A DNA stretch of 46,730 bases from Betaproteobacteria bacterium (GTDB lineage Bacteria > Pseudomonadota > Gammaproteobacteria > Burkholderiales > Rhodocyclaceae): the NCBI GenBank assembly GCA_947478755.1, contig CANJXH010000004.1, positions 1 through 46,730 of the forward strand. The letters are read 5' to 3'. The notes below the pieces were generated by a model that ran no database searches, was not told the DNA's origin, and saw only the letters and a list, made by a program, of their open reading frames with translations. Both the position numbers and the translations under genes were made by a program. Below are positions 36,175 through 45,256 of this stretch, piece by piece. Within the stretch, counting starts at the first letter, position 1. Each line of letters begins with the position of its first letter.

Positions 36175-36645
36175 ATGGCAAAGAGCAACATCGATTCACG
36201 AATCGAAGTCAAGGATTCGGGAATCCACGGCAAGGGCGTCTATGCAACAAAGCGCATCAAGAAGGACAAACCGATCATCGAGTACACCGGCGAGCGGGTC
36301 AGCGCCGATGAAGCCGACGAACGTTATCAGGACAATCCCAGTACCTATCTGTTCATGGTCGATGACAACATCTACATCGACGGATTATCGGACGGCAACG
36401 AAGCCCGCTTCATCAACCATTCCTGCAAGCCGAATTGCGTGGCCTACCTTGAAGACGATGGCCGCATCATGATCTATTCACGCAAGGAAATTGAGCCCGG
36501 CACCGAGCTGACCTACGACTACCAGCTCACCGACGAAGGCGACGAACCGGATTCGACGCCAACCGATTACACCTGCTATTGCGGGGCGTCGAAGTGCAAG
36601 GGCACGATGAAGGGATCGGCGAAGAAAAAAAAGAAAAAGAAATAG
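36175..36645 (+). CDS. SET domain protein-lysine methyltransferase with post-SET Cys cluster and poly-Lys tail
   Basis: IHGKGVYATKRIKKDKPIIEYTGE, ARFINHSCKPNCVAY, ELTYDYQL, CYCGASKCKGTM, GSAKKKKKKK. Confidence 0.92.
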   Translation: MAKSNIDSRIEVKDSGIHGKGVYATKRIKKDKPIIEYTGERVSADEADERYQDNPSTYLFMVDDNIYIDGLSDGNEARFINHSCKPNCVAYLEDDGRIMIYSRKEIEPGTELTYDYQLTDEGDEPDSTPTDYTCYCGASKCKGTMKGSAKKKKKKK

Positions 36646-40270: not shown

Positions 40271-43966
<3,696 letters not shown>

Positions 43967-43980
43967 GACGTTTCACGTTC

Positions 43981-44020
43981 CAAAAAACAAAAACCCGTTC
44001 GGTGCAATAACGAACGGGTT
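43981..44020 (-). terminator. Intrinsic terminator in metH leader (putative riboswitch expression platform)
   Basis: Minus strand: AACCCGTTCG-TTATTGCAC-CGAACGGGTT followed by TTTGTTTTTTG; between the SAM-II-like aptamer and the metH ATG. Confidence 0.82.
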
Positions 44021-44032
44021 TGGGTAAATCAA

Positions 44033-44092
44033 CTCGCCCGCTTTAGCCGTATTTTTTGCGCGCCCGCAAGCTGAGATTCAAATCGGCGCTTC
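44033..44092 (-). ncRNA. SAM-II (SAM-alpha)-like riboswitch aptamer upstream of metH
   Basis: Minus strand GAAGCGCCGATTTGAATCTCAGCTTGCGGGCGCGCAAAAAATACGGCTAAAGCGGGCGAG: P1 GCGCC/GGCGC and the recalled SAM-II signature GATTTGA...GCTTGC...AAA...GCTAAA. Confidence 0.75.
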
Positions 44093-44224
44093 CTGCAAAA
44101 TTCAGTGCTGACGATACGCGACAGGACCCGAAAAGTCAATCTTCACGCGGCATTTTCGGGGTTTCACGGGTATATTTCGCCCACCCATCTGATGCAAAAT
44201 TGCTCGATCTCAAAGGAGAAAACC

Positions 44225-45256
44225 ATGAGCCGCCTTGGCCTCACCATGCCCATCCTCAACCAGCCGTATTCGAACTTCCCCATCTTCGCCAATCTGGCCG
44301 ACGAAGCCGGCTTCGATTCGGTGTGGGACTACGAGTTCTATCGCAACCCCTTCATCATCCACGCCCTGTGTGCCCAGGTGACCAAGAACATCAAGCTCGC
44401 CACCGGCCTCGCCGCCGCTGTCGGCCGCTCGCCCTTCGAGATGGCAAACGCAGCGCTCGACGTCGAGGAACTTTCCAAGGGCCGCCTGATCCTCGGCCTC
44501 GGCACCGGTGGTGGCGACTGGGCCGAATATTTCAACGGCAACGACATCGATCACCCGGTCACCCGCATCAGCGAATACATCGACATCCTGCGCCTTGCCT
44601 GGAAGCATCTCGCCACCGGCGAACCTGCTTCGTACAAGGGCAAGTTCTATCGCTTCGACAATCCGCCGATGAATATCTTCGGCCTGCGCCGCGACATCGT
44701 GCGTACCGATGTCCCGATCTATGTTTCCGGCCTTCGTCCCAAGATGGCCCAGCTCGCCGGCGAAAAGGCCAATGGTTTCCTTGGCTTCCTGATGACACCG
44801 AAGTTCATCAAGGAAGTATGGGAACCCAATGTGGTTGCCGGCATCCAGAAGGCCGGGCGTCAACGCAAGGACGTAGAGACCACCGCGCTGGTGCTGTGCA
44901 GCGTATCGGACGATCGCAAGGAGGCGCTGCGCCGTGCCCGCATCAATGTCGGCCTCTACGTCTGCTATCCGGTCGGTGAAGTGGTCATCAACCACATGGG
45001 CCTGCAGGATGAACGCAACGCCGTGTTGCAGGCGCTGATGACCGAAGGCCCCGCCGCGCTCGAACGCGTGACCTCGGATGCGCTGGTCAAGGCCTTCAGC
45101 ATTGCCGGCACCCCGGCCGAGTGCCACGAGCAATACCAGCAATACAAGGAAGTGCTCGACCACGTCGTGCTGCACACGCCCTATGTGCCGCCGATCGCGC
45201 AGGCCGACAGCGAAGACGCCATCCGCAATACGATCAGGGCTTTCGCTCGCAGGTAA
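44225..45256 (+). CDS. LLM class flavin-dependent oxidoreductase (luciferase-like)
   Basis: MSRLGLTMPILNQPYSNFPIFANLADEAGFDSVWDYEFYRNPF...LILGLGTGGGDWAEYF; preceded by RBS AAAGGAGAA. Confidence 0.87.
   Translation: MSRLGLTMPILNQPYSNFPIFANLADEAGFDSVWDYEFYRNPFIIHALCAQVTKNIKLATGLAAAVGRSPFEMANAALDVEELSKGRLILGLGTGGGDWAEYFNGNDIDHPVTRISEYIDILRLAWKHLATGEPASYKGKFYRFDNPPMNIFGLRRDIVRTDVPIYVSGLRPKMAQLAGEKANGFLGFLMTPKFIKEVWEPNVVAGIQKAGRQRKDVETTALVLCSVSDDRKEALRRARINVGLYVCYPVGEVVINHMGLQDERNAVLQALMTEGPAALERVTSDALVKAFSIAGTPAECHEQYQQYKEVLDHVVLHTPYVPPIAQADSEDAIRNTIRAFARR

Follow-up and report, generated by a model that had tools for sequence, protein, structure and literature searches.

The leader of metH in the 46,730-nucleotide betaproteobacterial stretch analysed here (the window) raises the question of whether the gene is controlled by a riboswitch, of which class, and through what mechanism. 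The gene, which encodes a cobalamin-dependent methionine synthase of 1231 aa on the minus strand (40271–43966, ATG at 43966), is identified by its matches to the NCBIfam profiles NF007024 (PRK09490; 2075 bits) and TIGR02082 (1670 bits). Judged from its sequence, the leader is a SAM-II riboswitch and a new member of this known class, and we consider it highly probable that it turns metH off at high S-adenosylmethionine (SAM).

Identity and fold of the aptamer

The first-pass annotation had read the leader as SAM-II-like and proposed a SAM_alpha covariance search as a check. That search, over 501 bases, gave a significant match of the whole model (RF00521, positions 1–79 of 79) to minus-strand positions 44022–44099, with 33.5 bits and an E-value of 7.1e-6. 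Across the 2.63-Mb genome the E-value is 8.9e-6, and the match, the best by four orders of magnitude, is the only one below E 0.2. The score lies 2.5 bits under the Rfam gathering score of 36 bits, and at gathering thresholds no Rfam family was found in the entire window; this is no warning against the assignment, since most of the clear copies in relatives also score below 36 bits. A covariance model built from 41 relatives' copies (R2), from which the window and its same-genus copy were left out and in which one row (L154) was shortened to remove an insert, matched 44090–44028 with 71.2 bits and E-values of 4.7e-16 over 1.03 Mb and 1.2e-15 genome-wide. A further model (R1), whose training set included the window, is not counted as evidence. 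The match to SAM-II in the metH leader is not due to chance.

Read along the minus strand from 44090 to 44028, the aptamer has the order AGCGCC-GATTTGA-ATCTCAGC-TTGC-G-GGCGC-G-CAAAAAATACG-GCTAAA-GCGGGCGAGTTGAT. The blocks quoted in the first-pass annotation are all present where it placed them, namely GCGCC at 44089–44085, GATTTGA at 44084–44078, CAGC plus TTGC at 44073–44066, GGCGC at 44064–44060 and GCTAAA at 44047–44042, with an AAAAAAT block between the last two. GATTTGA (44078–44084), the conserved L1 core, is invariant or nearly so in the alignment of relatives. The copy resembles the SAM-II type found before metA in A. tumefaciens (Corbino 2005, PMC1273637) in its P1 stem, its GAUUUGA, GCUUGC, AAAU and GCUAAA blocks and its predicted short pseudoknot, as well as in having a promoter right before P1, a terminator behind and a methionine-pathway gene as its target. 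It differs in the nearly fixed betaproteobacterial P1 (GCGCC:GGCGC) and CAGCUUGCGGGCGC, in its metH target and in scoring under the Rfam cut-off.

The P1 stem, formed by GCGCC (44085–44089, minus strand) and GGCGC (44060–44064, minus strand), is backed by covariation in relatives, a check that the first-pass annotation had also proposed. Among 52 aligned relatives, 96.5% of P1 cells are paired and double changes occur at two pairs: the outermost, which appears as CG, AU, UG, GC or GU and has both sides changed in 18 sequences, and one inner pair that changes from C-G to U-A, the other inner pairs being almost fixed. In all, 19 cells have both sides changed (0 of 500 shuffles), and 59 of 74 copies have a standard outer pair, against 32 ± 4 after shuffling. 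The P1 of a Burkholderia copy (GCGUC:GACGC) provides a further compensatory change. In the window copy, the sixth, outer pair is an A-G mismatch.

The first-pass annotation also proposed a pseudoknot involving the segment after GCTAAA. A conserved core is indeed kept in relatives, but it pairs CAGCUUGC with GCUAAAGCG and not CTCAGCTTGC with GCGGGCGAG as originally drawn. Its 5' strand, CAGCTTGC, occupies 44066–44073 and its 3' strand, GCTAAAGCG, 44039–44047 (both minus strand), where GCTAAA is invariant; the latter is also the candidate antiterminator strand. The core is formed in 95.7% of cells and is mostly or nearly invariant, and it therefore carries little covariation evidence. No covariation was observed in the variable P2 extension when own partners were compared with swapped ones. 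A P1a pair adjoining the P2 core changes from G-C to A-U in one row, and a pair of this kind had been predicted from mutual information (PMC2258182). The P2 pseudoknot is thus consistent with the data, by conservation alone, rather than proven.

SAM-II binds SAM and not SAH (PMC1273637). It is very unlikely that the window copy has decayed or been re-specialised, such that it no longer binds SAM or recognises another ligand. Such a change is suggested by the sub-threshold Rfam score and the outer P1 mismatch, and is made conceivable by a sister element with a changed core (GAGTTAA) before metK, whereas all conserved core positions of the betaproteobacterial consensus are intact in the window copy and its R2 score is mid-range among the metH copies.

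Promoter, terminator and proposed switching mechanism

On the minus strand, the elements follow one another in the order promoter, aptamer, terminator and metH ATG. The sigma-70-like promoter, TTGACT-17 nt-TATCGT (44111–44139, minus strand), lies ∼20 nt 5' of P1, has 9 of 12 matches and is the only promoter-like site in 43940–44260, where shuffled sequences would be expected to give 0.2; TTGAC-like boxes are also visible in the leaders of relatives. The intrinsic terminator comprises an 11-bp hairpin, AAACCCGTTCG-loop-CGAACGGGTTT (43991–44021, minus strand; −15.1 kcal/mol in the scan), and a T-tract, TTTTGTTTTTT (43982–43992, minus strand), and T-runs are found behind the hairpins of relatives too. 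Folded alone, 44020–43982 gives −14.2 kcal/mol with a z-score of −3.9. A hairpin with a T-tract before metH had been noted in the first-pass annotation, but it has 11 rather than 10 bp, starts ∼20 nt rather than ∼13 nt past GCTAAA and ends ∼25 nt before the ATG. Plain minimum free energy folding of the whole leader, a method that cannot model the pseudoknot, was unremarkable (z −0.5) and did not prefer the aptamer. Relatives show this promoter–aptamer–terminator–gene order as well, at metH, metX and metZ.

The divergent neighbour of metH (44240–45256, plus strand) belongs to the luciferase-like-monooxygenase family (F420/FMN type), with scores below curated cut-offs, and shares an intergenic region of roughly 250 bp with the riboswitch. 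Elsewhere in the window, a protein of 156 aa (36175–36645, plus strand) matches the SET-domain effector family NF043024 with 45.6 bits against a cut-off of 550 and looks like a small SET-domain protein.

The metH leader is probably an OFF switch acting through transcription termination; we infer both binding and switching. When SAM is scarce, the free GCUAAAGCG strand and the GGG behind it would base-pair with the terminator's 5' half, allowing the polymerase to read into metH. Binding of SAM would close the P2 pseudoknot and lock the GCUAAAGCG strand, and with this strand held the terminator would form and transcription would stop. This is in keeping with the increased protection of P2 once SAM binds (review PMC10907184), and with the predicted transcription termination at the SAM-II riboswitch of S. 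meliloti metZ, where a short RNA rises at high SAM (PMC9373788).

The strand that would act as antiterminator is indicated by the homologues. Terminators of the gammaproteobacterial type, whose leaders were obtained from the survey of the whole class, begin with CCTGCTTTAGC or CCCGCTTTGGC, a near-exact complement of the aptamer segment GCUAAAGCGGG. Within the terminator 5' half, a complement of GCUAAAGCGGG occurs in 27 of 36 gamma-type and 21 of 67 beta-type leaders, compared with 31 of 1185 unrelated terminators, in a post hoc test on whole 5' halves that was devised after the gamma sequences had been inspected. In the beta set, a CCC at the arm's base accounts for part of the signal, and a scrambled control probe also gave p 1e-9. 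No covariation was detected between the 12 nt past GCTAAA and truncated terminator arms, the truncation having removed the part of the loop that bears the complement. The 3' strand of P1 (CAGCTTGCGGGCGC; GCGGG) was also considered as an antiterminator and rejected, being no different from 751 control terminators (p 0.09–0.8). The complementarity of the GCUAAAGC core of the aptamer to gamma-type terminators suggests that it serves as a general antiterminator, the predicted rule being that SAM-bound P2 holds GCUAAAGC so that the terminator forms, whereas GCUAAAGC, once free, captures the 5' half of that hairpin.

The OFF-switch mechanism is well supported in the SAM-II family and only plausible in the window's own copy, because 17% of control terminators do as well as the best pairing of the latter (AGCGGGCG/CGUUCGUU, −12.8 kcal/mol, several pairs being G-U). 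The proposal in the first-pass annotation that the strand after GCTAAA opposes the terminator 5' arm is therefore right in its geometry, and has its complement in gamma-type homologues, but the pairing is weak in the window leader. This weakness, shared by the beta metH leaders generally (median rank 0.39 for the set as a whole), would also be expected if a SAM-II aptamer were coupled to a different platform, with a terminator that is constitutive or responds to another signal and with partial control by SAM, acting for instance on RNA stability or the promoter. A precedent exists in S. meliloti metA, where no response to the aptamer is predicted for the terminator behind SAM-II and part of the regulation comes from the promoter (PMC9373788). 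We regard such an arrangement as unlikely, as 69 of 74 related aptamers are followed by a terminator (hairpin plus T-run, −10 kcal/mol or better), compared with 22 of 148 random stretches, and the antiterminator complement is evident in homologous leaders. For the preferred OFF switch, the complementarity between aptamer core and terminator opens the mechanism of SAM-II termination to direct testing.

SAM-II in related genomes and in published elements

A second SAM-II copy in the window's genome lies before metX (G000:C19:12128–12199, L161; R2 32.2 bits, E 2.3e-5). Its P1 and AAAT segment are separated by an inserted hairpin, CAGGGTTTTCCCTG; the copy has its own terminator behind and is missed by RF00521. 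The only SAH riboswitch (RF01057) in this genome precedes ahcY. With these two elements and the metH copy, SAM would set methionine synthesis, and SAH would set its own recycling.

Of 101 related genomes, 67 contain RF00521 matches, most of which score under 36 bits, and the copies examined lie mainly before the methionine genes metX, metH and metZ (examples confirmed with NCBIfam). In 369 genomes of the class, 30 have a copy above the Rfam cut-off, while at E 1e-4 matches occur in 95 with RF00521 and in 176 with R2; metF, metK and metN are among the targets. With the standard cut-off, most SAM-II copies of these bacteria thus go unseen. A search for DNA similarity to plasmids returned short matches to Legionella and Paracoccus only.

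Several unusual forms were observed. Three metH leaders (L072, L096 and L108) have SAM-II copies in which the loops are long and an additional insert lies past P1, and their model scores fall sharply. Tandem SAM-II-like elements, in which the second P1 is CCGCC:GGCGG, occur in class members (L192, L193 and L198; genomes G409 and G521), and G409 has ten R2 matches; tandem SAM-II has been described previously (PMC9481103). A SAM-II-like element with an altered core, GAGTTAA...ACAACTTGCGA..CGG...AAATNTCGCTAAAGCGTCG, lies before metK in Massilia, Herbaspirillum, Herminiimonas, Polynucleobacter and other relatives (L210, L211, L212, L213, L214, L217, L218, L219, L220, L223 and L225). Its P1 changes from CCGCC:GGCGG to CCGUC:GACGG, and it scores below every Rfam cut-off, with only L218 listed at E 1 (SAM_alpha, 22 bits). 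This element is a candidate specificity variant.

SAM-II had been described as best known from Alphaproteobacteria in the first-pass annotation and hence as unusual here. This holds only in part, as SAM-II was already known in Betaproteobacteria (Corbino 2005, PMC1273637; Barrick & Breaker 2007, PMC2258182), where its association with terminators was reported in 2007 (PMC2258182). What does appear to be undescribed is the target: no paper naming metH as a SAM-II target was found in the searchable literature, most subscription journals lying outside it. Our results add metH to the SAM-II targets, which is useful for annotation and for the study of riboswitch evolution.

Two published elements can be reinterpreted in this light. 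In an Rfam scan of 199 genomes, Leyn 2014 reported that SAM_alpha was confined to Rhizobiales and Rhodobacterales, and described as new a ‘metXZ’ element, reported from beta-proteobacterial metX and metZ only and with Nitrosospira multiformis metZ named as an example (PMC4239095). As described there, the element lies in metX/metZ leaders and has six conserved blocks, a pseudoknot (1–4 and 2–6) and a terminator behind, an architecture in keeping with that of SAM-II. The N. multiformis metZ leader matches SAM-II (RF00521 25.0 bits, R2 73.0 bits), and SAM-II precedes metX in many beta genomes. From gene, position and architecture, it is very probable that the metXZ element is SAM-II.

The second is the sRNA Bp2_Cand287 near metZ/metX (Khoo 2012, PMC3521395), now RF02424. 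Its strongest match (203 bits; L154 1501–1674, G156:C4:90579–90752) reads, in reverse complement, as a SAM-II riboswitch and terminator before metZ. By sequence, Rfam RF02424 (Bp2_287, ‘Burkholderia sRNA’) represents the strand antisense to these two elements; it shares their locus upstream of metZ/metX and differs in modelling the strand opposite the riboswitch. The same identity bears on the window, where RF02424 matches the plus strand with 24.7 bits and an E-value of 0.0014, as would be expected if the locus were a plus-strand antisense or small RNA gene of the Bp2_287 kind and not a riboswitch. This is extremely improbable, since that score is far under the gathering score of 70, the best RF02424 locus is itself opposite a SAM-II riboswitch, and promoter, terminator T-tract and gene order all point to the minus strand. 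The two separately published RNA elements, metXZ and RF02424, probably reduce to one known riboswitch.

Alternation of SAM-II and SAH riboswitches before metH

In the 39 genomes with the closest metH, the leader of this gene carries a SAH riboswitch in 21 and SAM-II in 12; 6 leaders have neither class, and no leader has both. One of the 12, L072, is assigned to SAM-II from its motif together with a weak R2 score. The SAH riboswitch (RF01057) occupies the same position before metH in many sister lineages; it differs in having an unrelated fold and ligand and in being expected to act as an ON switch, and no match to it was found in the metH leader of the window (43900–44400, up to E 10). Genomes with SAM-II at metH keep a SAH riboswitch elsewhere. 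On the MetH protein tree, the SAM-II and SAH labels require at least three changes, and the supported group of five that contains the window includes three leaders with a SAH riboswitch. It may be that metH was transferred together with its leader. We found no description in the searchable literature of an exchange of SAM-II and SAH riboswitches at metH in close relatives.

We are inclined to favour an interpretation in which, in Rhodocyclales and their relatives, the orthologous metH leader has repeatedly been re-equipped with either SAM-II, expected to switch off with SAM, or the SAH riboswitch, expected to switch on with SAH, and never with both. In this interpretation, the beta- and gammaproteobacterial SAM-II riboswitches would form a large and mostly unannotated branch with terminators constructed so as to pair with the core of the aptamer, and the GAGTTAA variant in metK leaders may have changed its specificity. 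The clean alternation of SAM-II and SAH riboswitches at a single gene in sister lineages provides a natural experiment on riboswitch-class replacement.
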